A stretch of 59,775 nt of DNA from positions 1 to 59,775 of the forward strand of contig VXOF01000089.1 of the NCBI GenBank assembly GCA_009840285.1, given 5' to 3'. A model generated the notes under the pieces. It saw only the letters and a list, made by a program, of their open reading frames with translations. It ran no database searches and was not told where the DNA came from. Source of the DNA: Nitrospira sp. SB0662_bin_26. Its GTDB lineage: Bacteria; Nitrospirota; Nitrospiria; Nitrospirales; UBA8639. This document shows, piece after piece, positions 3,270-52,038 of the stretch. Each line of letters starts with the position of its first letter. The first letter of the stretch is position 1. The translations under genes were made by a program, and so were the position numbers.

Positions 3270-4522
3270 GCGAAAAGGCGTTACACGGCAAACGAATCGT
3301 CCTTTGCGTGACGGGAAGCATTGCGGCCTATAAAGCCGTGTCCCTGCTCCGGACGCTGGTCGAGGAAGGGGCGGAGGTGTCCGTGGTCATGACGCCGTCC
3401 GCCACGCAGTTCGTGGCGCCGCTGACCTTCGAAGTGTTGTCCGGCCGGCCGGTGTTGAAACGGCTCTTTGCGGGTGACCAACCCATGCCGCACCTGCAGG
3501 TGACGGAAGACGCGGACCTGATCCTGGTGGCGCCGGCCACGGCGAACTCCCTGGCCAAATGTGCGTTGGGTTTGGCGGATGATCTGCTGGGGACGTTGTT
3601 CGTGTCCGCACGATGTCCCATTGTCATGGCCCCGGCCATGGACGTCGAAATGTGGGACCATCCTGCGGTGGCGGCGCATACGCGGACGTTGCGCGAGCGC
3701 GGGGTCATGGTGCTGGAACCGGAGGAAGGCCCGCTGGCGTCCGGCCTGATCGGGAAAGGCCGGTTGCCTGCCGAACACGTGATTCTGGATGCGGTGCGTG
3801 CCCGCCTGGCGCGTCTGCGGGACTGGTCCGGTCAACGGGTGCTCGTCTCGGCCGGCCCCACGCGGGAACCGATCGATGCGGTTCGCTTTATCACGAACGC
3901 CTCATCAGGAAAGATGGGATACGCGATGGCGGAAGCCGCGGCCCAACGGGGAGCCGAGGTGCTGCTCGTCAGCGGACCGACGGCATTGCCGTGTCCGCCC
4001 AACGTGACGCGCGTTTCGGTGGTGACGGCTGAAGAAATGGCTCAGGAGCTGGATGCCCGGTTCGCGTGGGCCACCGTCCTCGTGATGACCGCGGCGGTCG
4101 GAGACTTTCGACCCCGGAACCCTTCGTCCGAAAAGGTCAAGAAACACAAATGGACCGGCGAGTCCCTGGAACTCGAACGGACTCCGGACATCCTGCAAGC
4201 GTTGTCACGGAAACGGACGCACCACGTGCTCGTCGGCTTTGCCGCGGAATCCGAGGACCTGCTCGCCAACGGCCGCAAGAAGCTGCATCAAAAAGACCTC
4301 GATTTGCTGGTCGTGAACAGGATTACGGGGCCGCAATCGGCATTCGGCAACGAGACCAATGAAGTCATTCTCCTGCCTCGTCATGGAACGCCCATCGAAG
4401 TTGAACGCCTGCCGAAACGGTTCCTGGCCGACCGCATTTTGGATACGGTTCAGGAACAGTGTATCGGTTCCCCATCCTCTGGGTCTCAGCAACCCCATGA
4501 AGGAATCCGCCGGATTCAGTAG
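3266..4522 (+). CDS. coaBC: Bifunctional phosphopantothenoylcysteine decarboxylase / phosphopantothenate-cysteine ligase
   Basis: GKRIVLCVTGSIAAYKAVSLLR, APAMDVEMW, SAGPTREPIDAVRFITNASSGKMGYA; GTG start overlapping the rpoZ stop. Confidence 0.95.
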   Translation: MSEKALHGKRIVLCVTGSIAAYKAVSLLRTLVEEGAEVSVVMTPSATQFVAPLTFEVLSGRPVLKRLFAGDQPMPHLQVTEDADLILVAPATANSLAKCALGLADDLLGTLFVSARCPIVMAPAMDVEMWDHPAVAAHTRTLRERGVMVLEPEEGPLASGLIGKGRLPAEHVILDAVRARLARLRDWSGQRVLVSAGPTREPIDAVRFITNASSGKMGYAMAEAAAQRGAEVLLVSGPTALPCPPNVTRVSVVTAEEMAQELDARFAWATVLVMTAAVGDFRPRNPSSEKVKKHKWTGESLELERTPDILQALSRKRTHHVLVGFAAESEDLLANGRKKLHQKDLDLLVVNRITGPQSAFGNETNEVILLPRHGTPIEVERLPKRFLADRILDTVQEQCIGSPSSGSQQPHEGIRRIQ

Positions 4523-4601
4523 CGCCTCCAGCCCGTCCGCCTACAACATCATCCCCGGCAAGACAGTACCGTACTACCTGAGATGACAAAATGCATACAT
4601 T

Positions 4602-5114
4602 TTGACTATTTTTGGATCCATTATGAATCCTTTTAGCGGTATTTTGGCTCCATTTTGGCGCCATTTAGATTCTTTGTGTCATCAAGCGGTTCTTTGTGTG
4701 TTGGTGGCCCAACTCGGCGGTGGAGCGGTTTTCCCTTTGCAAGATGCGTACGGTCAAACGAGACTTGTCTTTGATGATTCTTCGTCTTCACAACGACCTG
4801 CCGTTGTCGAATTACCGGAACCCCTGCCTGAGTTCGACCCGGACAATCCACAAGCCATAGGGATCATTCTTGTCTTTCATCGTTGGCCTGACGACGAGGA
4901 CAAGAGAATCATTCTTGAAAAGGCCGCGGCAGCAGGCTTGACGAAGACCGACGAGATCTCTCGTTTCAAAATGTGGCTTTTTAAATGGAGCGAATGGCAA
5001 AAGGCGGCAGAGGCCGAGAAGGTCTGTCGCAGCCTGCCGGATCTTTCCTCCCTGGAGTACTGCGAGCCGGATTCTTTACTCGGCCCCGCAGCCGGCTTGT
5101 CAACGAATGAGTGA
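4602..5114 (+). CDS. Hypothetical exported or membrane-associated protein
   Basis: ORF with hydrophobic N-terminal segment; no recognised family; start uncertain (4623 ATG possible). Confidence 0.45.
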   Translation: MTIFGSIMNPFSGILAPFWRHLDSLCHQAVLCVLVAQLGGGAVFPLQDAYGQTRLVFDDSSSSQRPAVVELPEPLPEFDPDNPQAIGIILVFHRWPDDEDKRIILEKAAAAGLTKTDEISRFKMWLFKWSEWQKAAEAEKVCRSLPDLSSLEYCEPDSLLGPAAGLSTNE

Positions 5115-40744: not shown

Positions 40745-40820
40745 GCGCCTGTAGCTCAGTGGATAGAGCACTGGCCTCCGGAGCCAGGTGCCGCAGGTTC
40801 AAATCCTGCCAGGCGCGCCA
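40745..40820 (+). tRNA. tRNA-Arg (anticodon CCG)
   Basis: GCGCCTG/CAGGCGC acceptor; loop CTCCGGA; CCA encoded. Confidence 0.95.
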
Positions 40821-40844: not shown

Positions 40845-40920
40845 GGGTCGTTAGCTCAGCTGGTAGAGCAGCTGACTCTTAATCAGCGGGCCACAGGTTC
40901 GATCCCTGTACGACCCACCA
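40845..40920 (+). tRNA. tRNA-Lys (anticodon CTT), integration target
   Basis: 76 nt cloverleaf; loop CTCTTAA; CCA encoded; 3' 48 nt repeated at 51384-51431. Confidence 0.95.
40873..40920 (+). repeat. attL: 48-bp direct repeat, 3' part of tRNA-Lys
   Basis: TGACTCTTAATCAGCGGGCCACAGGTTCGATCCCTGTACGACCCACCA, identical at 51384-51431. Confidence 0.95.
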
Positions 40921-40985
40921 TTTTTTATCAGTATCCATGCATGTTTTGAGAGATTTAGAGAAAGCGGAGAATTAAGGGAAAATAA

Positions 40986-41006
40986 AAAGATAGCCGAAAG
41001 ATAGCC
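40986..41006 (+). promoter_or_regulatory. Candidate integrase arm-type sites, left end
   Basis: Two AAAGATAGCC copies at 11-bp spacing; similar pair AAAGATAAC at 51268 and 51279. Confidence 0.5.
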
Positions 41007-41020
41007 CGACGAGGAGCAAA

Positions 41021-41329
41021 ATGGACATTTCGAAAAGGGCAGAGGGAACCATTCTTTTTGAGGAAGGTGTGATTCTGAAAGCCTACCCGGAGACAGAGAA
41101 CCATACAGACATCGAACTCGCACCGGGAACTATTGTCGGCTCGATTGTTCGGAGTCCCAAAACGGGGAGGTGGCGATACGATGACACTATGCGCATAACC
41201 TTGAAGATTGAAGCCAACCCGGATTTTTCTACAGACGGAGAAGCGGCAAACGAAATCAAAAAATTCTTGCCTCCATTAACGGAAATTCATGCGCTTGCGA
41301 AAACATACATGAAAGGTGACATTCGTTGA
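41021..41329 (+). CDS. Hypothetical protein in phage-derived element
   Basis: 102 aa ORF. Confidence 0.5.
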   Translation: MDISKRAEGTILFEEGVILKAYPETENHTDIELAPGTIVGSIVRSPKTGRWRYDDTMRITLKIEANPDFSTDGEAANEIKKFLPPLTEIHALAKTYMKGDIR

Positions 41330-41341
41330 GAACGTGGTAAG

Positions 41342-41773
41342 ATGACGCAACCGAAAGGAGACCCCATGCCGCGAACTGTCACCGGCGGAGCCAAACTCAA
41401 ACGATTTATGCAGAACGTCAAACAGTCCGCCAGGAAGCCCATTGACGATATTGAAATCGGCTTTTACTCCGAGGATCGTCACCTACCGAGTCGCTTGCCT
41501 ATGCCGATCTTGGCCGTCATTCACGAATTTGGATCACAGGACGGCAAGACCCCGGAATCACCCTATTTCCGGTCAGCGATTAACCGGGCCAAAAGCGAAT
41601 TGCGACCGTACCTTGTCGCCGCGATTGACCCCTTGAGAATGACCTTGATTGATGCAGGGGCCAAGGCGATAGGCGAGGCATTCAAAAAGATTTTGCAACA
41701 GGAAATTTTGCGGTATCAACTGAAAGACACCGGCCAACTGGTCAAGGCCGTCAAAGTGAAATTGCTACGGTAA
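41342..41773 (+). CDS. Phage HK97-gp10-like / virion-morphogenesis-type protein
   Basis: LAVIHEFGSQDGKTPESPYFRSAINRAKSEL resembles neck/tail-completion proteins. Confidence 0.6.
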   Translation: MTQPKGDPMPRTVTGGAKLKRFMQNVKQSARKPIDDIEIGFYSEDRHLPSRLPMPILAVIHEFGSQDGKTPESPYFRSAINRAKSELRPYLVAAIDPLRMTLIDAGAKAIGEAFKKILQQEILRYQLKDTGQLVKAVKVKLLR

Positions 41774-41775
41774 GG

Positions 41776-42861
41776 CTACGCTTGCAGGGCCATGAGGCCG
41801 GACTTCGTGACGGCTTCTTGGAGATCCATGCCGCCCTCTACCATCTTTTTGAAGGACGCTGCCCGCCCGCTTAAATCGTGCGCTTGGAGTTCATCGAAGG
41901 AAAGGGAAATATCGAGGTCTAACTTCGTGGAGAGTTCCAGCGCAAGCAAGCGACCGACCGGGACACAAGACCCAAACACAAACCGCCGCCACGATTCGCG
42001 CCCCTCTTGACTTGAGCCGCTTGAATCAAACACGCCCACCGGAACGCCGCAGGCTGCCAGGACCGACCGAAAGATGGAGTCCCGTGCTTTCGTCACGCTA
42101 TCGGGAAGCATCGGGCCAAGGCGTGACGGTTTCCAGTCCGTCAAGGGAGCGGCTTGCCGCCCTTCCCCATGCCCCGCCGCCGTCGTTTCGACTAGTGCGG
42201 TTTTCCCGTTGAGGCTTTGAATATCCGTCCGTAGTTTGTCGAACGCGCCCGGCTCAGTGTCCGTGCCGGGTGCATGATCTTGCGGCATGGGCAGGACAAA
42301 GCCCGTGGCCGCGCCCGCCTCATCCCCGAAACTTTTCTCTAACCGCCCCAGCGCCCGGCCCGTGCTTTCGGCATAGCGCAAGGGAGAGAGACCTCTCCAC
42401 GGCGTCCGAGGATCGCAGGCATACTTGAAATGCAACACGCTGTCAGCGGAGACGAGCCGACTCACCCAGCCCGTCGGCGCTGGCAAGTCAACCCGATACA
42501 TCCATGTGCGTTCAGGATAGTCCCCGGTTTCCACGGTGAAGGAACTACACGGAACCAACGTGAGGCCCATATCCCCGGCTTCAAGGGCAAAGACAATTTC
42601 CCCTTTGCGGATGAGTTCACGCACCGTCATGGACAGCATCGCCGCCGTCACCGGCATGGTCCGAAGATTATCAGAAGGGGAGACCATCGCCGCCGCGAAC
42701 GCCCGGGCATACGCGCCCGCGCAGCTTTCGACCGCCGCTGTTTCAATGGCTGATTGAAAGGCCGTGGAGCCGCCCGCTTGCGCCACGATATAATTGACCA
42801 GCTCGTCCGAATAGGACACGTCCCGGCGTTCCACTTTCTTTTTCGAGGTAAAGGGCCACAT
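41776..42861 (-). CDS. Phage portal protein (HK97 type)
   Basis: HFKYACDPRTPWRGLSPLRYAESTGRALGRLEKSFGDEAG; RSVLAACGVPVGVFDSSGSSQEG. Confidence 0.88.
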   Translation of the reverse strand: MWPFTSKKKVERRDVSYSDELVNYIVAQAGGSTAFQSAIETAAVESCAGAYARAFAAAMVSPSDNLRTMPVTAAMLSMTVRELIRKGEIVFALEAGDMGLTLVPCSSFTVETGDYPERTWMYRVDLPAPTGWVSRLVSADSVLHFKYACDPRTPWRGLSPLRYAESTGRALGRLEKSFGDEAGAATGFVLPMPQDHAPGTDTEPGAFDKLRTDIQSLNGKTALVETTAAGHGEGRQAAPLTDWKPSRLGPMLPDSVTKARDSIFRSVLAACGVPVGVFDSSGSSQEGRESWRRFVFGSCVPVGRLLALELSTKLDLDISLSFDELQAHDLSGRAASFKKMVEGGMDLQEAVTKSGLMALQA

Positions 42862-43223
42862 TATGAGGACGGGTACTTTCCTACGGCTTCGGTATATCCT
42901 TCGCCCCAATCTTCAGCAACCATCATTCGATATTCCTTTGACAAGTAGCGGATTTTGTCGCCTGCATGGTCATCGTCCAACACTTCAATGTCATGCCGGA
43001 GATAAAACTTCCGTAAATCTTCTTCCCGCAATCCTTCCGGGAGGATCAACCGTTCCTCGCCGTCAACGGGAACTGTCACCACCGTCACCGGCGTTTCCGT
43101 AATCACCCCCGGCACAAATTCCCCGTACATATTTCTTGAACCTTCGGTTTCCCGAATCAAGGTTGCCGATTCGGATAACTGGTGAGACAAAATCCGCCGC
43201 GCCACGCGGACCCGTGGATTCAT
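42861..43223 (-). CDS. Head-closure/connector-like phage protein
   Basis: Small ORF between portal and adaptor; RILSHQLSESATLIRET...GDKIRYLSKEYRMMVAEDWGEGY. Confidence 0.55.
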   Translation of the reverse strand: MNPRVRVARRILSHQLSESATLIRETEGSRNMYGEFVPGVITETPVTVVTVPVDGEERLILPEGLREEDLRKFYLRHDIEVLDDDHAGDKIRYLSKEYRMMVAEDWGEGYTEAVGKYPSS

Positions 43224-43531
43224 ACCGCCCGCCGTTGTTTGAAGGGAGACAAGAGCGCCATAGCCCCGGAATGCCGCAAGGCACTCACGTTATTGGCCGC
43301 ATAGTGAACATTGAGCGGCCCCGCCGTTTCTGAACGAATCGCAGACTTCGGCATTCCGTACAGAAAGCCCGCACAGCGAATGACCGCCTCATTCAAGACC
43401 GGCCCCGGCACCGTTGAGCCGTGTGCATACCGTTCGACTTCGGCAGACGCAACCCCCAGCAACCGCGTTGCCGTGTCAAGATCCACGTCAATCAGTGTTC
43501 GGAGTTCGTCGGCTGTCAGTGTGATAGCCAA
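43220..43531 (-). CDS. Head-tail adaptor-like phage protein
   Basis: LDTATRLLGVASAEVERYAHGSTVPGPVLNEAVIRCAGFLYG. Confidence 0.65.
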   Translation of the reverse strand: MAITLTADELRTLIDVDLDTATRLLGVASAEVERYAHGSTVPGPVLNEAVIRCAGFLYGMPKSAIRSETAGPLNVHYAANNVSALRHSGAMALLSPFKQRRAV

Positions 43532-44112
43532 ATCATGGCCTTTCGCTTTGCATGAGTATCGGCTTGCCGTCGCTGTTCCTCAGACCGCACCGCAACCTCT
43601 GTTCCGTCTTTATACACGCCTCGTGTGACGATACTCATTTCAAGCAGGATTGCATCGTTGATTTCCCGAATATCGACCGAGGGATTGCCCGGTTCAGGAA
43701 TGAAGCGTTGAGGGTTTGGATTGATGGTGGACGGCGGCAACACAAACCCAGGAGACAAGTCAGCCATGAGGCCAGATTCCACAGCTAACACCGCATCGCG
43801 CATCCAGGACGGTCGCCGTGCCTCCTCCGGGAGTGTCGCCTCAAACGTCAAGGCCTCCGCGCTATCAGTGAGCCGCAGCGTTCCGGCTCGCTTGCTTGCC
43901 AACGGTGCATCGAAGGAATGCCCGACCAACAAGTTTACGTCGGCTTCCTCCGTTTCGACCGCATAGCGAAACGCCCTTGGCCCAAACCGTTCCTTTCGCG
44001 TTTTGCCCGATCGTGCAATCACCCCGATCGAGTTATACCGAAATGAGCCGACAAGGAGACGGCCCGCTTGTCGGATTTCCAACCGGCTTTCATAAATCGC
44101 GTATTCCATCAT
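43516..44112 (-). CDS. HK97-family prohead protease
   Basis: LVGSFRYNSIGVIARSGKTRKERFGPRAF...VNLLVGHSFDAPLASKRAGTLRL. Confidence 0.88.
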   Translation of the reverse strand: MMEYAIYESRLEIRQAGRLLVGSFRYNSIGVIARSGKTRKERFGPRAFRYAVETEEADVNLLVGHSFDAPLASKRAGTLRLTDSAEALTFEATLPEEARRPSWMRDAVLAVESGLMADLSPGFVLPPSTINPNPQRFIPEPGNPSVDIREINDAILLEMSIVTRGVYKDGTEVAVRSEEQRRQADTHAKRKAMIWLSH

Positions 44113-44130
44113 GCACCAAAGAAGGAAAGC

Positions 44131-44259
44131 GGCCAGGGTTGCGCATGGTCTTGGTAGGAGCTACCAAGTCATCACCCTGGCCGGTTCCCCGGAGTCCCTG
44201 GACGCTGGATGAGAACGTCCAGGAAAGCGGACCCGACCGCCTGACTGGTAAGGGTCCGC
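44131..44259 (-). other. Three consecutive hairpins between capsid and protease genes
   Basis: GGCCAGGGT/ACCCTGGCC enclosing CTTGGTAG/CTACCAAG; CCTGGACG/CGTCCAGG; GCGGACCC/GGGTCCGC. Confidence 0.7.
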
Positions 44260-44265
44260 CCACCG

Positions 44266-45537
44266 TTATGAGGTGACGCGGAAACTGTCTTGCACGTACA
44301 CGTCGGAGCGGAGCAACACCACGTCCCCGACCAGCATATGCACGACAATTTTCACTTGGCCCTTATCCGCGTTTGAGTACATATCCCGGATCGTCATATC
44401 AAACCCCGACCACGCGGGCATGACCGCTGGCGCATCATTCGCCGGATTCATCCGCACGACTACGGCCTGCTGAATATGTGAGGCCGGAGACGCAATCTTC
44501 CCGGATAACCGCATGCCCCCGCCGACACGATCCCAATAGGCCGGGAAACTTTCGTTTGATTCAGTTGCACGGAACAGGCCCGCCGCTTGCTGATAGGAGA
44601 CTGTGCCGACCAGAAGCCGAATGTCACGCAACGACGTGGCCCAAGGGTCCGCTAAGTGGGAGACCGCTGCGGTATGCCACCGCGCCCAGGTTTCCACCCC
44701 TGCTGCCGGAGCCGAGGGGTCCGTCAACTGGACCAACAAGCCCCGAATTTGCCCGTCCGTGTTGTACGCGCTGGCCGCGCCGTTCAAAATTTCATCATCC
44801 AGTTTTTCCGCAATGACCCCTTGAATGGCTGTGCGTAACGCTTGCTCCATCCCGGCGAGCCGCGCCAAATCTTCCACGCGGACCTCGAAGGCCGCGCCGA
44901 TTCGCCGGGGCTGTTGGGTGGAGACCGTGAACGCGCCCGCCGCGGCATTCACCGCCGCATCCTTCGCCACCGCGCCGACCCCACTCGCCGGAGTCGTCGA
45001 GAGGACCGGGAACGTCATATCCCCGATTCCGGCGTCAGGCATGCTGATGCCGAGATATTCCGCCACCGACCGTTTAAACACAGCGGGGACAATCGCTGCT
45101 TGATTCACCCCGCCCTGTTGCCCCGGCGTAACGGCCCGCACCTCTTTCCCTTGGTTGTGGGTCCGTTGTTCTGTGGGTTCAAACACGGAGATCGGCAACT
45201 GCGTATCGGTCCCCATCGCCGCCATATACTCCGTTTCAGCCCCGGTCAACTGGGCCTTGCCCGCTTGCCAGCCAATATACCGACCCACGCTGAATTTGGA
45301 GCGTAGTTCCAGCTTTTCCTTATCCTCTGCACTCATGGTGTCATGCCGCACGTCGGGTGGGTCTGGTTCGGCCAATTCAAGAGCGGTCAACTGGGCATCC
45401 GTATCACGCATGGCACCCATGACCGTATTGAGTTCCGCCCGTTGTTCCTCCGTCAATGTCAGATTCGGGTCGGAGAGTTCCGTTAATTTATCCTTCTGCT
45501 CCTTGAGCTTCAATTTGAGTTTTTGTTTGTTCGTCAT
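44266..45537 (-). CDS. HK97-type major capsid protein
   Basis: Coiled N-terminal delta-domain-like region, RIGAAFEVRVEDLARL..AIQGVIAEKLDDEILNG; adjacent to protease. Confidence 0.88.
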   Translation of the reverse strand: MTNKQKLKLKLKEQKDKLTELSDPNLTLTEEQRAELNTVMGAMRDTDAQLTALELAEPDPPDVRHDTMSAEDKEKLELRSKFSVGRYIGWQAGKAQLTGAETEYMAAMGTDTQLPISVFEPTEQRTHNQGKEVRAVTPGQQGGVNQAAIVPAVFKRSVAEYLGISMPDAGIGDMTFPVLSTTPASGVGAVAKDAAVNAAAGAFTVSTQQPRRIGAAFEVRVEDLARLAGMEQALRTAIQGVIAEKLDDEILNGAASAYNTDGQIRGLLVQLTDPSAPAAGVETWARWHTAAVSHLADPWATSLRDIRLLVGTVSYQQAAGLFRATESNESFPAYWDRVGGGMRLSGKIASPASHIQQAVVVRMNPANDAPAVMPAWSGFDMTIRDMYSNADKGQVKIVVHMLVGDVVLLRSDVYVQDSFRVTS

Positions 45538-45627
45538 CGTGCTTTCCTTCTGTTAATGTGGCCGAGCATGCCGCCCGTTCCTGTATAGAATACGCTTGTT
45601 TGATGAATATGTAAAGACAAGTAGGGG

Positions 45628-45656
45628 TTGACCGAATTAGCAGAAACCCCTATGCT
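45628..45656 (+). promoter_or_regulatory. Sigma70-type promoter for small plus-strand ORF
   Basis: TTGACC-17 nt-TATGCT. Confidence 0.55.
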
Positions 45657-45698
45657 GGCAGAAGATCAATTCACATTCTAAAAAAGAAAGGTTTCAGC

Positions 45699-45908
45699 AT
45701 GACGGAATCAAACAAAGACAAAGAAGAACGCTTGCGACTCTTGGCCGAAAGTCAAGGGAAGCAACTACTGGAATCAGACCACCGCGACGAGCAGGGATTG
45801 CTCAATAGCGAATACATGATTGTAACGGGCCAGGCCCCGTTTGAGCTCGTTAAGATCTATTGCAAGGACCTTGGGGAGGTCGAAGCCCATTTGAACGACC
45901 CGGACTAA
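45699..45908 (+). CDS. Small acidic protein, accessory gene opposite the head operon
   Basis: 69 aa; own promoter and RBS (AAAGG). Confidence 0.6.
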   Translation: MTESNKDKEERLRLLAESQGKQLLESDHRDEQGLLNSEYMIVTGQAPFELVKIYCKDLGEVEAHLNDPD

Positions 45909-46174
45909 CGGGAGACGAGCGACCGGGCCAGCTTGCGCAACTGCACCCGCGCCCGCGTCAAGGGTCCGGCGTGTTCGTCAATGTGACAGTCTCTGCACAA
46001 CACTTCGAGATTGTCCGGCGTTTCGTCCCCGCCGTATTCCAACGGGATGATATGATGCACTTCGAGTTTCCCCGGACCTTTGCACCGTTCGCACCGATAG
46101 CCCCGCGCTTCGAGCGTGACGCGCCGCACCCGTTGCCAATAGGACGCCGCCCTTGCTCGATGGTAGTTAGACAA
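45905..46174 (-). CDS. HNH endonuclease
   Basis: CERCKGPGKLEVHHIIPLEYGGDETPDNLEVLCRDCH. Confidence 0.93.
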   Translation of the reverse strand: MSNYHRARAASYWQRVRRVTLEARGYRCERCKGPGKLEVHHIIPLEYGGDETPDNLEVLCRDCHIDEHAGPLTRARVQLRKLARSLVSR

Positions 46175-47747
46175 AGGCCACCCGCGCCGGTTTCGGTTTC
46201 GGCTTGCCGGCTTCCATCAACCCCAGGCCCGCCGCAATCACGCCCGCCTGTAACGGGTCAATCCGTGCAAGGCCCTTCTGTTTATCCAGCGCCGGGTTGC
46301 CCGCTTCATCAAACCGCACGGACGCCCCGGCGATTGCTTGCGTCAAGACCGCCGCGCCGTGCGTGACGTGCCATTTCCCTTGCATGACCAACCGTTGAAA
46401 CGCCCGCACGTCATAGGACCCGTCCGCCGTCTTACTTGCCCCCGTGCCCCGCCACGTCACCGGCCACGGAACGCTTGCCTTCTGCAAGGCTTCTTCGGCT
46501 TCGGCTTTGCGGTATCTGTCAGCCCCGGCGACAATCACCGGCGACCCGTTCAACTGGTCTGCACAATCTTCGAGGAATTGCGCAACCGGCGTGACCCGCG
46601 TTCCCTCATAGGCCCACAGTTCCCCCGCCTGTTCCAACTGGCAATAGAGGTTGCCGACCCCGTCACGCTTGCCCCTGGCTTCGAGCGAAGGAAAGCCCGG
46701 AAAGGCCGCATAGCATTCGACCCGCCCGGAGTCGATCCAGTAGGCGACCAGCGAACACATAGCCGCCGACCCGCCCAGGTCGAAACCGACCACGCAGCGC
46801 CCGCGCCGGTCCGGTTTCCCCTGCAAACACTTTTCCCAATCCGCCGGGGAGACGATTAACTGCTTCCCCGGATGTTGCGGCAAGTTCATTTCATGGGCCA
46901 GAAAGAAAGCCTGATCGCTTGGGGTTGCCAGGACCCGCGCCGATTCATGCCGCATGTGGTCGAGGCTTTTGATTCCCGCCTTCAAGCCGGGATTCGCTTT
47001 ATGCCATGCGCGTTCGTCATCTATGGCCGCGCCCTTCTCAGGTTGATAGAGATGCACCGCCACGCCCGGCGATCCGCGCCGCGCCACCATTTCAGGAATG
47101 AACGGCCCGAAGCCCCATATCGACAAGGCGATAAACCGGCCGTTTTTTGCACTGGTCGAGGAACGCAGCGAGGCGACAAAATCCCGTTGACTCTCCGGCA
47201 CTAAACCGAGTTCATCAAAGACCGCGTCATCGAGGCCGCTTGAATGCGCCCCGCAATCGGCAGCCAAGAGGTCAAGGCTTCCCGTCGAAGAGACCACGCG
47301 CCCCGGAGCAGGGGAACGGTAAAAGGTCAAGTCATCAAGCCCGGAGGCTTCGGCAATCTGCTCCACTTGTCGTTTCAGTTCCCCCGCCTTTTCCTTACTC
47401 ATGCTTGCGACCCCGCCGCGCCACCCGTGAAACCTCAACGGACCCACCAAGCGCCCGAGGAGATAGACCGCCACGATTGCAGACTTGGCATTCTTTCGTG
47501 CGACCGTCAAAAGGCTTTCCCGTGCGGTCAAGGCGTCACTCAGAAACGACACCCCGTAGTCAGGCAAGGTCAGAGGTTCCCCGGCCCGTGGATGCCCCGG
47601 AGGGACCCGCAACTTCGTTTCCGACCATTCGACCAGGGCCTTGACTGGATCATCAGGGTAGGGGGCAGTCTCCACGGATTTTGACACCCGTTTCTTGGCC
47701 CGATATTCCCGCATGTAAAGACGCATGGCCGTTTTGCTTAGTGGCAT
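46167..47747 (-). CDS. Phage terminase large subunit
   Basis: LLTVARKNAKSAIVAVYLLG Walker A-like; LDDAVFDELGL Walker B-like; VVGFDLGGSAAMCSLVAYW nuclease motif. Confidence 0.9.
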   Translation of the reverse strand: MPLSKTAMRLYMREYRAKKRVSKSVETAPYPDDPVKALVEWSETKLRVPPGHPRAGEPLTLPDYGVSFLSDALTARESLLTVARKNAKSAIVAVYLLGRLVGPLRFHGWRGGVASMSKEKAGELKRQVEQIAEASGLDDLTFYRSPAPGRVVSSTGSLDLLAADCGAHSSGLDDAVFDELGLVPESQRDFVASLRSSTSAKNGRFIALSIWGFGPFIPEMVARRGSPGVAVHLYQPEKGAAIDDERAWHKANPGLKAGIKSLDHMRHESARVLATPSDQAFFLAHEMNLPQHPGKQLIVSPADWEKCLQGKPDRRGRCVVGFDLGGSAAMCSLVAYWIDSGRVECYAAFPGFPSLEARGKRDGVGNLYCQLEQAGELWAYEGTRVTPVAQFLEDCADQLNGSPVIVAGADRYRKAEAEEALQKASVPWPVTWRGTGASKTADGSYDVRAFQRLVMQGKWHVTHGAAVLTQAIAGASVRFDEAGNPALDKQKGLARIDPLQAGVIAAGLGLMEAGKPKPKPARVAFV

Positions 47748-47852
47748 GGTGAACCCCAGTAAACCCGGTTTACCCCCCTGTCAGAGCTTGACCCACCCCA
47801 CGCCCCTCTGGATTTCGCCCTTTTATTGCGGGTCCCATAAGCAGAGCGCCGA

Positions 47853-48158
47853 TCAATTCAGGTTCGAGCCCTTCACCCCGAACAGGCGAGCCCGCCACCG
47901 GCACTGGTCAATCAAGGCCGCATCCATGCGAGCCCGTAGCAAGTTCAGATATTCCACGTCATAGCTGCCCTTGTGTTGCTCAAGCCCGCGTCGAATGATG
48001 GTGTCATACCGTTGCATGAATTCGTTTGCATCTTTGGGTCCGTTCTCTCTATCGGCTATGGCAATCATGCAGTCGGCCAACGCCCACGCGGAAAGCCCCT
48101 CGCTGTTCATCAACTGCAACCGTGCGATTTCTCTTTCTTCATCATCGTAGTCGTGCAT
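47853..48158 (-). CDS. Hypothetical protein in phage-derived element
   Basis: 101 aa ORF upstream of TerL; TerS role possible by position only. Confidence 0.5.
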   Translation of the reverse strand: MHDYDDEEREIARLQLMNSEGLSAWALADCMIAIADRENGPKDANEFMQRYDTIIRRGLEQHKGSYDVEYLNLLRARMDAALIDQCRWRARLFGVKGSNLN

Positions 48159-48162
48159 GGGT

Positions 48163-48420
48163 TCACCTCACAGTAAAACTGCAATAGCACCCGCGCTTGA
48201 CGGGTTCAGTAAAGCGAGGCGTGTTCTGTATGGCCTGAATCGCGCCCCGCAGTTTGTCGGCTTCCTGCTTGCCCTTGTGTCGCACTACGTCTTTCACAAT
48301 GCTGGATACGTGATTCTTTTCGAGGTCGTGAATCTCATGCGACCGGGAGCAGAGGGTACAAAACAACACGGCGTCGGCGATTTTCCAAGCGTGTTTTGAG
48401 TGCGGGCAATAGCGCCTCAT
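48163..48420 (-). CDS. Hypothetical protein in phage-derived element
   Basis: ORF with C/H-containing motif YCPHSKHAWKIADAVLFCTLCSRSH. Confidence 0.5.
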   Translation of the reverse strand: MRRYCPHSKHAWKIADAVLFCTLCSRSHEIHDLEKNHVSSIVKDVVRHKGKQEADKLRGAIQAIQNTPRFTEPVKRGCYCSFTVR

Positions 48421-49079
48421 GGCATGGTCAACTTGAACAGTTCGATAGGCCAATTCAAGGACGGGTCCGCAGACCCGGCCACGTCCGGCCAGGCCACGCC
48501 CGCCGTGTTGCCGTTGATCGCTACGCCGTCCCGGATTGCGTCATGGATGGTATGCAACCGCCACGGCCCCGCCGTTTGATAGTAGCCGCGCCATTGATCC
48601 CCGGCATACCGAAGGAACGAGCCGCCGCTTGTTTGTGCTTCGGCGAGCAGCACGGCATAGGTGGAATCCGTGGTCACGTTCGCATCCACCAACAGCGCCC
48701 GCATCATGGCTTCAATCTGTGAGGTCAATTTCTCCATATCGGCGTCACGCAAAGACACGTGAACAAACGGTATCCAGTTTTCGAGTAGATGACGCGCTAC
48801 CACGCGCCGCCGTGTTTCGGCGATTTGCTCAGGCGTGCGGGTTGTGACGGGTTGCCGGAACGTCACGCCGTCCCAGGTCGAGCCTGGCTTGATCGAGTGA
48901 GGAGCGCCCGCCGCGTGCAAGGTCGCATCCTTGACCCACGTTGACCCCTTCACGGGTGCCGGGTTGGTCTGTTCCGTGTACGCCGTGATGACGTGCGTTG
49001 AATCGTTGACGAGGTACATGGCCGCGTGTGCCGTCACTGGCAGACACACAAGCACGGCCACTATCAGAAAACGGGTCAT
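48417..49079 (-). CDS. Exported hypothetical protein, candidate satellite cargo
   Basis: Signal peptide MTRFLIVAVLVCLPVTAHAA; no family recognised. Confidence 0.55.
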   Translation of the reverse strand: MTRFLIVAVLVCLPVTAHAAMYLVNDSTHVITAYTEQTNPAPVKGSTWVKDATLHAAGAPHSIKPGSTWDGVTFRQPVTTRTPEQIAETRRRVVARHLLENWIPFVHVSLRDADMEKLTSQIEAMMRALLVDANVTTDSTYAVLLAEAQTSGGSFLRYAGDQWRGYYQTAGPWRLHTIHDAIRDGVAINGNTAGVAWPDVAGSADPSLNWPIELFKLTMP

Positions 49080-49302
49080 GGTCTGGTATCCTTTCGTTAA
49101 AAGCCGCCGCCTTTTTTTCGACCGCACATAAAGAAATCCCTTTCTTCCCAGACAGAGCCCCAGGAATGCCCACCGGGGAGAAACATCTGGTTCCTTGACT
49201 ACAGGAAATTCTTTGATAGAGAGGCTTGAAAAATTTTGGCGCCGCCGCTATCAAAAAACGAATACTCGGATTTTGTCTCTGTCACCCAAAGAGACCATGA
49301 GA

Positions 49303-49347
49303 GGGAGTCACCCGCCCATGCCTTCCCAGGGGAGCCACCTCCCCATG
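49303..49347 (+). repeat. Two-copy 18-bp direct repeat at 27-bp spacing
   Basis: GGGAGTCACCCGCCCATG (49303-49320) and GGGAGCCACCTCCCCATG (49330-49347), 16/18 identical. Confidence 0.6.
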
Positions 49348-49608
49348 ACTGTCTATCTCAACCGGGTTGTGGGTAGGGTGAAATTCACAGCGCCCGGATT
49401 CTTCCCACGGTTTTCTGGTAGGAGCCGGAAAGCCCGCGCAACTGGGTTTCCTCTATTGCCTATTTGTCGATCCGCAAGCAACGAGCGGCACATGGTGCAA
49501 CCCCATGGTGAAATCAGGGTTGACGGCAAAGAGGAAATCCCCCATACTTGGACTTGCGTGTATTGGTGTCCTCTTGTCCACTGTCAACCCATGATGAGGC
49601 GGACACAG

Positions 49609-49645
49609 AAAGGGGCTTCGGGTGCTACCGAAGCCCTTTTCTTTT
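49609..49645. terminator. Rho-independent terminator
   Basis: GGGCTTCGG...CCGAAGCCC followed by TTTTCTTTT. Confidence 0.85.
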
Positions 49646-49841
49646 ATCCCGCCACATGCTGTTTTGTTGTTCTCCGTTCAATCCACTCATTCAAAGATCG
49701 CCCCGAATAGCCGATCCGCTTACCGAGCCGAACAAAGTCAGGCCCTTCGCCAGTCGTTCGCCACTTTGCCAACGTCGAAGGCCGGCCGATTTCGTGTAAG
49801 GCTGGATCGCCTACGCGATATATCTTTTGTTCGTTGAACAC
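49644..49841 (-). CDS. AlpA/excisionase-like HTH protein
   Basis: IYRVGDPALHEIGRPSTLAKWRTTGEGPDFVRLGKRIGYSGRSLNEWIERR. Confidence 0.8.
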   Translation of the reverse strand: MFNEQKIYRVGDPALHEIGRPSTLAKWRTTGEGPDFVRLGKRIGYSGRSLNEWIERRTTKQHVAG

Positions 49842-49960
49842 GTCGCACCCCCTTGTTTGATAGCGTATTATTGCGACGTATCACGGCTCAAAAACCGTGT
49901 CAATTCATGTTTCTACGCTGGTGCACCATACAGGATTGCATGAACGGGGAAAGGATGAAG

Positions 49961-50012
49961 GCAAAGAAAAAGGGCATGGATACAGGCGATTCACCGCCTC
50001 ACCATGCCCTTG
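49961..50012 (-). terminator. Terminator downstream of integrase
   Basis: AAGGGCATGG/CCATGCCCTT with inner AGGCG/CGCCT; minus strand continues TTTTTCTTT. Confidence 0.8.
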
Positions 50013-50030
50013 TGTGTTCAAGAAATCAGC

Positions 50031-51212
50031 TTAAACTTTTTTTTCGAGTAACCCCGCAATCAGCGCCGCGCCCTGTTCCGCCGTGTCACTCAAGGCGTCA
50101 CTCGCTTGTTGGACGTAGCGGTTCGACATGGCAAGTGTTTTGTGCCCCAGGGTATCACGCAAGAGAAAAGCACTCACCCCACGCGCCGCCAGATGGGTTG
50201 CAAACGACCGCCGCAAATCGTGAAGGCGTACATCCTCAAGCCCCGCCGCGTGACAGGCTTGCTCAAACACTTTTCGCGTTGACTTGTACGTGACGGCACA
50301 GGCCCCGCGCCGCGTGTAGTGTGAAGGAAAGACCCACTCCGAATCGTTGACCCGTGGCAAGTCTTCGAGAATCGCCTTGACCGGCCCGGCCAAAATGAGG
50401 GTGCGCTTTCCTGTTTTCGTAACCGGCAACACGGCCCTTGAGGTTTCAAGGTTCACGTTCGACCAATGCAGACTTAACGCTTCGCTGATCCGCAAACCCG
50501 TCAAGGCCGCAACCACGATTGCCCGCACTTCAAACAAGTGTTGCCCTTCGAGATTCAGTAAGGCCGCGTTGAGCCGTTGCATTTCACTCTCACCTAAGAC
50601 GCGATCCCGCGCCGTTTCTCTTGCCCGCATGATACCCTTGACCGGGTTGGAATGTTGCGGACGCAGTTCCCACGTTTCGGCAAGGTTCATCAATCGAGAC
50701 AGGACGGCCAATGCCCTATTGCGTGACGTGGAAATGTGCATCATCCGTTTGGCCGTGCGTTCAATGTCAGCCCTGGCAATGTCTTTGACTTTCTTTTCTC
50801 CCAACCACGGCAACACATGACGCCGGATGATCTTTCGATATTCCATCAACGTGCGTTCCTTCATGCGGTCAAGTTTAATCAGGTTCGGGGCAAAGTCAGT
50901 TTCAAACCGCGCCCACAAGTCGGCAAACGTGGGAGCCTTCCGTTCCTCATGCCGCCGCGTTGCTATATCCTCTTGTCCGAGCCGCACCTTTGCCAGTTCC
51001 GTTGCCGCCCGTTTCCGCGCCGCGTGTAACGTCACGTCCCCGACCATTGCCAGCTTGACCAACTTGAGTTTGCCGTTGACCCGGTACATGATGACGAAAG
51101 ACTTCTTTCCCTTCGGGAACACCCGACACCCAAAGCCCTTGAGTTCTGAATCCCACAGGATGAACGGCTGATCCTTCGGCATGGCCCCCTGAATGTTTTT
51201 GTCTGTCAGCAT
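50031..51212 (-). CDS. Tyrosine-type site-specific integrase (P4-like)
   Basis: ALTGLRISEALSLHWSNV; RLHDLRRSFATHLAARGVSAFLLRDTLGHKTLAMSNRYV. Confidence 0.95.
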   Translation of the reverse strand: MLTDKNIQGAMPKDQPFILWDSELKGFGCRVFPKGKKSFVIMYRVNGKLKLVKLAMVGDVTLHAARKRAATELAKVRLGQEDIATRRHEERKAPTFADLWARFETDFAPNLIKLDRMKERTLMEYRKIIRRHVLPWLGEKKVKDIARADIERTAKRMMHISTSRNRALAVLSRLMNLAETWELRPQHSNPVKGIMRARETARDRVLGESEMQRLNAALLNLEGQHLFEVRAIVVAALTGLRISEALSLHWSNVNLETSRAVLPVTKTGKRTLILAGPVKAILEDLPRVNDSEWVFPSHYTRRGACAVTYKSTRKVFEQACHAAGLEDVRLHDLRRSFATHLAARGVSAFLLRDTLGHKTLAMSNRYVQQASDALSDTAEQGAALIAGLLEKKV

Positions 51213-51267
51213 GGCCGCCCCCTTTTTGTTGCTCGCTGAGCAGAATCAGCGAGTCACGCGCCCCTGA

Positions 51268-51287
51268 AAAGATAACAAAAAGATAAC
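51268..51287 (+). promoter_or_regulatory. Candidate integrase arm-type sites, right end
   Basis: AAAGATAAC at 51268 and 51279, 11-bp spacing. Confidence 0.5.
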
Positions 51288-51383
51288 ATATCCCATGTTA
51301 TACCATGATCTACCGCTTTCTATCAAGCGTTATAAATCAATGATTTGAGAGGATTGTAGAGGGTAGGAAGGGAGGGGTAAAAA

Positions 51384-51431
51384 TGACTCTTAATCAGCGG
51401 GCCACAGGTTCGATCCCTGTACGACCCACCA
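51384..51431 (+). repeat. attR: 48-bp direct repeat (tRNA-Lys 3' fragment)
   Basis: Identical to 40873-40920. Confidence 0.95.
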
Positions 51432-51523
51432 ATTTTCTAACAGGCCTCTCTCAATACACGGAAGCGGGCAGGAATTTCTGCCCGCTTCCGTGTGCCGCTT
51501 TCCTGTCAAGGAAACGCCGGTCG

Positions 51524-51916
51524 TCACATGCCTTTCTTGAGCATTTTGACGTGGCCCAGCAGGATCTTCGAATTCTGAATGTCGGGATTGTCTTTCCCGA
51601 TGTCTTGAGCCATTTTAAACTCATTAGCCGCTTCCATGTGCTTGTCCGTCTTATCCAACGCGAGCGCAAGGTTATAGTGCGCTTCCGCCGATGCCGGGTC
51701 GGCCTCGACCGCTTTGATAAAATGACCGAGAGCCACGTCCCAATGTTCCTGGTTATAATGCTCGATGCCCTCATTGTTCGCGGCATGAGCTTTGGAGTCA
51801 GGCGACGTCATGAGCGCCGGTGGGCCGCCGGCAACGGCCGTTCCAATGCCGAAGCCCACCAGGGCGACAAATGCGACGAACGAAGTCAAAAGAATCAGTC
51901 TGAAGATGTGCTGCAT
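51524..51916 (-). CDS. Exported TPR protein
   Basis: Signal peptide; HYNQEHWDVALGHFIKAVEADPASAEAHYNLALAL. Confidence 0.8.
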   Translation of the reverse strand: MQHIFRLILLTSFVAFVALVGFGIGTAVAGGPPALMTSPDSKAHAANNEGIEHYNQEHWDVALGHFIKAVEADPASAEAHYNLALALDKTDKHMEAANEFKMAQDIGKDNPDIQNSKILLGHVKMLKKGM

Positions 51917-52038
51917 CACGAAACCCCCTATGTGAAATGTGAATGAACGTGCATCATGGTCTAACACCGATTGGTGAACAATCGGTTACGAAAAGCATTC
52001 CGTTTCGAAACAAATTCAGTTTCCAGAATGCGTGAATC

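Follow-up and report, generated by a model that had tools for sequence, protein, structure and literature searches.

A tail-less mobile element with its own phage head and packaging genes in a Nitrospira tRNA-Lys gene, probably a helper-tailed satellite

Described head-encoding satellites and small-capsid candidates

The cf-PICIs provide a precedent for satellites that encode their own head and packaging genes and need a helper phage only for tails (PMC10690885), and three radiations of cf-PICI capsids have been reported (PMC11389934). The Streptomyces satellites MulchRoom and MiniFlayer also encode head and packaging genes; MulchRoom takes a long tail of the helper type, and MiniFlayer binds the neck of its helper through short tail fibres that it carries (PMC10690885). 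Moreover, circles of ~7-13 kb from gut metagenomes, with predicted capsids of T about 2.3-3, have been presented as small-capsid candidates by Luque et al. 2020 (PMC7762592). In HK97-like phages, genomes of ~40 kb follow the order terS-terL-portal-protease-capsid and continue into a tail module.

The mobile element described here lies in the window, a 59,775-nt stretch of contig VXOF01000089.1 from Nitrospira sp. SB0662_bin_26. It is complete and was inserted recently, and it codes for a head and a packaging motor but lacks a tail. It meets the cf-PICI traits of self-encoded capsid, protease, portal and connectors, of absent tail genes, and of an integrase and AlpA-type regulator within a discrete att-bounded island. 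The island at NZ_CP008957 1680329-1694760 in E. coli EDL933, which we take to be the cf-PICI EcCIEDL933, shares with it an integrase, an HTH/AlpA-type regulator, capsid, protease, portal, closure, connector, HNH and TerL, and tail genes are absent from both. However, the EDL933 island runs MCP-protease-portal-closure-connector-HNH-TerS-TerL over ~14.4 kb with replication and SSB genes, whereas the window element runs TerL-HNH-MCP-protease-adaptor-closure-portal over 10.5 kb, with neither TerS nor a replication gene recognisable; similarity between the two portals and the two major capsid proteins (MCPs) is undetectable, and the TerLs agree at 20-21%. MulchRoom and MiniFlayer depart from the present family in their virulent helpers, direct terminal repeats and low GC. 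The candidates of Luque et al. resemble it in being circular and in encoding phage head or packaging genes, within ~7-13 kb, but come from gut data, and genome length was the basis for treating them as tailed phages (PMC7762592). The TerL of HK97-like phages is related, at about 25% identity, and their portal, protease, capsid, connector and gp10 are of matching types, but these phages differ in gene order, tail module and genome size. A P4-like satellite, with its own replication protein and capsid-size redirection without a capsid gene, was rejected, as the window element has capsid, portal and TerL genes; Pfam and PHROG recognised no replication protein in it.

Insertion site and gene content

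The insertion (40921-51383, 10.5 kb) lies in tRNA-Lys(CTT), which ARAGORN finds intact at attL (40845..40920, plus strand) with tRNA-Arg(CCG) as its upstream neighbour (40745-40820). The 48-bp perfect att repeats bounding about 10.5 kb in tRNA-Lys that were noted in the preliminary description are present as the initial part of a 53-nt repeat, whose attL (40873..40925, plus strand) and attR (51384..51436, plus strand) copies are identical at 52 of 53 positions. Because the only other direct repeat in the 17 kb checked is a single 19-nt pair, an exact 48-bp repeat at 10.5-kb spacing on a tRNA 3' end is not due to chance. The same tRNA-Lys site carries no insertion in ten same-genus genomes, the insertion being found in one genome only, and family- and phylum-wide searches among the host's relatives returned no additional copy of the element. 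Near its ends are two AAAGATAGCC direct repeats (40985..41007, plus strand) and two AAAGATAACA direct repeats (51267..51289, plus strand), each pair 11 bp apart, which are inferred to be probable integrase arm sites; a Rhodospirillaceae element also has 11-bp repeats close to each end.

On the attR side, a tyrosine integrase with an arm-binding domain (50031..51212, minus strand; Phage_integrase 1e-26, Pfam/PHROG) shares 46% identity with its counterpart in the Rhodospirillaceae tRNA-Lys element. An AlpA-like excisionase/regulator (49644..49841, minus strand) is weakly supported by profiles (HTH_17 9e-4 in Pfam, phrog_66 8e-4) and is 47% identical to the gene at the same position in a Rhodospirillaceae element (L063). 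It is followed by a terminator-like hairpin with a 9-bp stem (49613..49636, minus strand), although such sites are not more frequent in the region than in shuffles, and neither promoter nor terminator counts there exceed those of shuffled sequence.

The packaging genes, on the minus strand, comprise the terminase large subunit (46167..47747; TerL_nuclease 7.7e-10 in Pfam, PHROG TerL 1.5e-36), in which the motifs ARKNxKS, DExG, FDLG and GADRY are all found, and an HNH endonuclease (45905..46174; Pfam HNH 3.7e-13). The HK97-type major capsid protein (44266..45537, minus strand) is weak when taken alone (Phage_capsid 2.8e-5, 0.1 bit below the cut-off); eight of nine family members match Phage_capsid, the best at 5e-10, and the protein is 34% identical to that of a second element in the same genome. 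A capsid profile gave only weak capsid matches to PDB sequences (0.016), and the AlphaFold capsid model was too poor for use (pLDDT 48). Also on the minus strand are a prohead protease of type S78 (43516..44112; Peptidase_S78 3.6e-12 in Pfam) with both His and Ser motifs, a head-tail adaptor or connector (43220..43531) that is weak in PHROGs (phrog_442 0.023) but shares 44% identity with the second element's adaptor, a head closure protein (42861..43223; phrog_939 1.5e-8, collar gp28 0.0045), and a portal protein (41776..42909; Pfam 3.1e-9, PHROG 7.4e-11) that is 45% identical to its counterpart there. A gp10-like tail-completion/Neck1 protein (41342..41773, plus strand; phrog_222 6.9e-12) is encoded convergently to the portal.

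Every head gene is open and without frameshift, in keeping with the intact head module claimed at the outset, and the claimed set of integrase, AlpA-like protein, HNH, TerL, capsid, protease, adaptor, closure, portal and gp10 is supported by Pfam and PHROG matches and by relatives. The layout first given for these genes required correction in that HNH lies downstream of TerL and that gp10 and a 102-aa ORF are encoded by the other strand. Apart from the gp10/neck connector, no tail family was matched by Pfam or PHROG, and neither database recognised lysis, repressor or replication genes, as the preliminary description had also judged. Of the cf-PICI packaging set of HNH, TerL and TerS, the first two were recovered, whereas no ORF of the element matched a TerS family in Pfam or PHROG. 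Five ORFs have no family match. A 101-aa ORF directly upstream of TerL (47853..48158, minus strand) is only a positional candidate for the small terminase. A 220-aa protein (48417..49079, minus strand), with an N-terminal hydrophobic segment that appears signal-like by eye, found no match in Pfam, PHROG or PADLOC, and a 96-aa ORF (48163..48453, minus strand) found none in Pfam or PHROG. The others are a 69-aa ORF (45699..45908, plus strand), opposite in strand to its neighbours, and the 102-aa ORF adjoining attL (41021..41329, plus strand). PADLOC detected no defence genes in the element.

Relatives, integrated and free

The element is one of a family of uniform ~10-kb elements, which has members in several bacterial phyla and also, in the form of free circles, in viral metagenomes; the gene order TerL-HNH-MCP-protease-adaptor-portal is conserved. 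The second element in the same genome has the same layout and occupies a tRNA-Leu gene (14-bp repeat, 11.5 kb). One Rhodospirillaceae MAG holds three elements, in tRNA-Lys, -Ser and -Arg, whose tRNA-end repeats close at 9.8-10.7 kb; in a control for such repeats, random 50-mers gave zero matches scoring at least 14 in 120 trials. An alphaproteobacterial element in tRNA-Met measures 10.2 kb, and one on a Pseudorhodobacter plasmid lies between 54-nt repeats 10,645 bp apart. The integrated elements (n = 7), each closed at a tRNA gene or by a flanking repeat, thus span 9.8-11.5 kb, and three genomes contain two or three copies.

Among viral contigs, neither a scan with a single TerL protein nor a two-row portal alignment recovered anything; relatives were found with two motifs, one for TerL and a hand-made one for the portal. 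Of the portal-motif contigs, 18 of 20 were not confirmed by tblastn. The TerL-motif scan yielded 22 contigs, all of 4.8-11.9 kb, seven of them closed. Together with two Chloroflexi contigs, these give nine closed circles of 8,952-11,632 bp with the same content. Some free circular relatives have the adaptor fused to, or beside, a fibre-like protein of 600-940 aa; one relative (L106) has matches to tail-fibre and collagen-like families, the best at 1.2e-10. The AlphaFold model of an adaptor-fibre protein was too poor for use (pLDDT 34). Replication genes occur in some relatives, for example a primase zinc-ribbon and AAA ATPase pair in L063.

The satellite reading and its alternatives

The window element is probably a phage satellite, integrated and complete, that has its own head and packaging module and borrows a helper's tail. 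The sequence itself shows insertion at the 3' end of tRNA-Lys, an undamaged head module and relatives of equal size that lack tail genes; helper, induction and particles are inferred. When a helper tailed phage infects the cell or is induced, the integrase and AlpA would excise the element as a circle, its DNA would be replicated by helper or host proteins, and TerL with HNH may cut and package ~10.5 kb into a small capsid for which the element supplies capsid protein, protease and portal. The neck at which the helper tail docks would be prepared by adaptor, closure and gp10/neck protein, and the hybrid particle would inject its DNA into a new cell, leading to integration at tRNA-Lys. For the family as a whole, the most likely interpretation is that of satellites whose particles are completed by the tail of another phage. 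No resident helper was found, since the host genome (113 contigs) matched none of the tape measure PF10145, sheath PF04984 and Phage-tail_3 PF13550 families, models that do not cover all tails. This, and the lack of a recognisable TerS or replication gene, tell against the satellite reading.

A tail-less, capsid-encoding family of such uniformity, spread across Alphaproteobacteria, Chloroflexota, the lineage of the window itself and viral metagenomes, would show that head-only satellites form a lineage beyond the well-studied Enterobacteria, and would give real candidates for the ~10-kb phage heads regarded as "missing" in the small-capsid literature. Multiple copies per genome and closed circles raise the testable question of whether such elements borrow tails from other phages or enter cells by means of a single protein.

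Differing from the satellite reading only in ancestry, descent from within one of the three cf-PICI capsid radiations would explain the common set of integrase, AlpA-type regulator, HNH, TerL, portal, protease, capsid and connectors without a tail. It seems unlikely in view of the undetectable portal and capsid similarity to the EDL933 element, the distant TerL, the altered order and the missing TerS. In the TerL tree, moreover, the family forms a single fully supported group on one side of a 100/100 branch, outside which the EDL933 TerL falls. The preliminary assignment to cf-PICIs therefore holds for the compact, tail-less, capsid-encoding type, whereas membership goes beyond the evidence; judged by comparison with the EDL933 element only, the window element looks like a separate lineage that would work as a cf-PICI does.

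A less favoured possibility, improbable although not excluded, is that the family comprises self-sufficient minimal viruses of the HK97 lineage, ~10 kb in size, for which head, portal and an adaptor-borne spike or very short neck would replace the phage tail at entry, the integrated forms, including the window element, being proviruses. The adaptor-linked fibre-like proteins of some free circles could provide such a tail-free entry route, which would count against the satellite reading; the replication genes of some relatives and the lack of resident tail genes under the models used point the same way. The window element, however, has no adaptor-linked fibre and no recognisable replication or lysis gene, and it retains gp10/Neck1, a protein of the head-tail junction in HK97-like phages.

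Decay of a full tailed prophage that lost its tail, lysis and replication genes could account for the missing tail and for the inversion of gp10 relative to the head operon, but it is very doubtful and was rejected. The seven integrated elements close at the same size in different tRNA genes or repeats, the nine circles share their content, and the window head genes are open with intact motifs. A tail module is absent from the closed circles and the att-bounded ~10-kb relatives, which speaks against a tailed prophage, intact or decayed, and the tail-less circles refute decay for the family. In addition, portal and capsid had zero matches among 50,697 phage genomes, tailed or of any other kind, although the presence of MulchRoom and MiniFlayer in that collection is unconfirmed. 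The proposal of a satellite-type element instead of a prophage remnant is thus upheld by the ten empty sites, the seven elements and the circles, and neither of the outcomes named beforehand as refuting it, relatives with a complete prophage at these att sites or frameshifted head genes, was encountered. Least credible is that the host has domesticated the particle for its own use, as with a gene transfer agent: the base composition of the element equals that of the host (0.566 vs 0.567), but this reading is rejected because a function that the host retains would be common to relatives and would not be mobile, whereas the insertion occurs in a single genome, the site is empty in the ten others, and the element has near-perfect att repeats and its own integrase and AlpA.

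Organization and insertion site of the tRNA-Lys element

The 3' end of tRNA-Lys(CTT) is duplicated at 40873-40925 and 51384-51436, bracketing a 10.5-kb insertion, and the two att copies are identical at 52 of 53 bases, with the first 48 perfect; the preliminary description of an att-bounded element of about 10.5 kb with 48-bp perfect repeats and head and packaging genes is thereby confirmed. Read from the right end, the minus strand encodes an integrase, an AlpA-like protein, three ORFs without matches, TerL, HNH, an HK97-type capsid, an S78 protease, an adaptor, a closure protein, and a portal. The plus strand carries a gp10/Neck1 protein and one unknown ORF at the left end, as well as a 69-aa ORF between HNH and capsid. 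The head genes are open and tightly packed or overlapping, and the TerL and protease motifs are intact, in keeping with the intact head module initially proposed. The element shows no recognizable gene for tails, lysis, a repressor, replication, or TerS, and the lack of the first four had already been remarked. AAAGATA occurs as a pair of repeats 11 bp apart shortly inward of both att sites (40985-41007 and 51267-51289), and these pairs look like integrase arm sites; a Rhodospirillaceae tRNA-Lys element possesses its own repeats with 11-bp spacing at equivalent positions.

Judging from sequence comparison, the insertion is a recent arrival, because sites without it occur within the genus and its TerL and portal are absent from relatives. 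It is missing in 10 of 12 same-genus genomes inspected, where 0.1-2.5 kb separates the tRNA-Arg/tRNA-Lys pair from the TPR-type gene that here flanks the element on the right (51524-51967); at four loci (L029, L032, L035, and L039), the alignment continues straight on from the tRNA. The TerL was not found in 49 other genomes of the host family (E up to 1e-10), nor the portal in 395 other genomes of the phylum sample (E up to 1e-15).

Integrated and free relatives

The host genome contains a further element (G000 contig C106, about 26.6-38.2 kb; L003 12630-20000 and L004 1-4192) adjoining tRNA-Leu, whose 3' end recurs over 14 bp at a distance of 11.5 kb. It is tail-less, has its own integrase, and carries portal, adaptor, protease, capsid, HNH, TerL, and integrase genes ordered as in the tRNA-Lys element, with 24-45% identity between the head and packaging proteins. 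Among its genes is one with a weak match to the candidate defence model PDC-M32A (5.7e-4).

A portal-alignment scan across 85,462 species genomes, which gives a lower bound, revealed at least two hosts, one Rhodospirillaceae MAG and one Chloroflexi MAG. The Rhodospirillaceae element is likewise inserted in tRNA-Lys(CTT); it shares 46% (integrase), 47% (AlpA), 44% (TerL), and 40% (portal) identity with the Nitrospira element and also encodes HNH, capsid, and adaptor. Together with two further elements of that genome, in tRNA-Ser and tRNA-Arg, it is closed by tRNA 3'-end repeats (10.7, 10.6, and 9.8 kb for tRNA-Lys, -Ser, and -Arg, respectively). An alphaproteobacterial tRNA-Met element is closed at 10.2 kb by a 17-bp repeat, and a Pseudorhodobacter plasmid copy is flanked by 54-nt repeats spaced 10,645 bp; random 50-mers gave no such matches in 120 trials. 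The family is rare, since portal matches occurred in only 4 of 338 and 2 of 349 genomes sampled around the two hosts. Two more Chloroflexi elements (G425 contigs C83 and C58; L077 and L078) have portals each reported with one in-frame stop in the genome search, despite which L078 forms a closed circle on assembly.

A TerL motif scan over 2.9 million viral contigs yielded 22, all between 4.8 and 11.9 kb long; within the limits of each contig and of the search, their gene order is TerL-HNH-capsid-protease-adaptor-portal. Such collections are rich in short contigs, so that length by itself counts for little, and the argument rests on the closed ones: seven with exact terminal repeats of 55-127 bp and two Chloroflexi MAG contigs (10,880 and 9,040 bp), giving nine closed assemblies of 8,952-11,632 bp. 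Such exact end overlaps denote circular assemblies, in which circular DNA, concatemers, and terminal redundancy are indistinguishable.

Relationship to phages and cf-PICIs

The portal and capsid of the Nitrospira element and the Rhodospirillaceae portal had no tblastn matches among 50,697 phage records, and phage matches to its TerL were limited to HK97-like phages at about 25% identity. A maximum-likelihood tree built from 43 TerL rows has a 100/100 branch between the 32 family members and HK97, Rhizobium phage 16-3, Javan8, plasmid prophages, and the EDL933 element; the tree has no known root, long rows are among those included, and phages are represented by a few nearest matches rather than a full sample. 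On these comparisons, the element is part of a large, uniform lineage whose capsid and portal have no counterpart among the phage records searched; the literature searched, with partial coverage, contains no description of the family.

The EDL933 island 1680329-1694760, which we take to be EcCIEDL933, encodes an integrase, an HTH protein, replication genes, capsid, protease, portal, closure, connector, HNH, TerS, and TerL. Its functions match those of the Nitrospira element one by one except for TerS and replication, recognized only in EDL933, whereas gene order differs and clear sequence similarity is confined to TerL (20-21%) and integrase. The initial interpretation as a cf-PICI-like, capsid-encoding satellite was right in kind. 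According to a review and a paper on Streptomyces satellites, cf-PICIs form their own capsids and provide their own packaging but need a helper for tails, and their capsids comprise three radiations (PMC11389934; PMC10690885).

Proposed tail acquisition and accessory genes

Integration and the head module of the element are documented by its sequence, from which it is inferred that the element could be induced, would be replicated by helper or host, and would form its own capsids and obtain tails from a helper phage; the gp10/Neck1 protein favours tail docking. No resident helper was found, as the host genome lacked tape-measure, sheath, or Phage-tail_3 matches and the Rhodospirillaceae and Chloroflexi MAGs lacked sheath or Phage-tail_3 matches. 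For the satellite reading this absence is not decisive, because the cf-PICI of EDL933 was not mobilised at detectable frequency by any of the 17 prophages of its strain (PMC11389934).

Several free members encode a 600-940-aa protein fused to or adjoining the adaptor. That of the viral contig L106 matches tail-fibre and collagen-like families (1.2e-10), to which repetitive sequence may contribute in part, and those of L093 and L105 match weakly. Large fibre-like proteins, either adaptor-fused or freestanding and beginning with a hydrophobic, signal-like segment, lie between adaptor and portal in L057, L064, L090, L093, L096, and L103-L107, and might represent a spike or helper-binding fibre, for which MiniFlayer, a satellite whose short fibres bind the helper neck, provides a precedent (PMC10690885). 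Given these adaptor-linked proteins in free members, cell entry without a borrowed tail by part of the family is left open.

The Rhodospirillaceae contig L063 encodes a primase zinc-ribbon protein and an AAA_25 ATPase between alpA and TerL (3590-5039), a replication module missing from the Nitrospira element. In the Rhodospirillaceae tRNA-Ser element (L075:16544-17032), a protein matching tail-fibre and endolysin PHROGs (1.3e-18 and 2.3e-7) is the sole possible lysis-type gene seen in the family. The small circular Roseomonas mucosa plasmid pTT14-8 (L086; CP099479.1, 16,883 bp) encodes HNH, portal, protease, capsid, and TerL with no tail annotated, and may be a head-only element from a different lineage.
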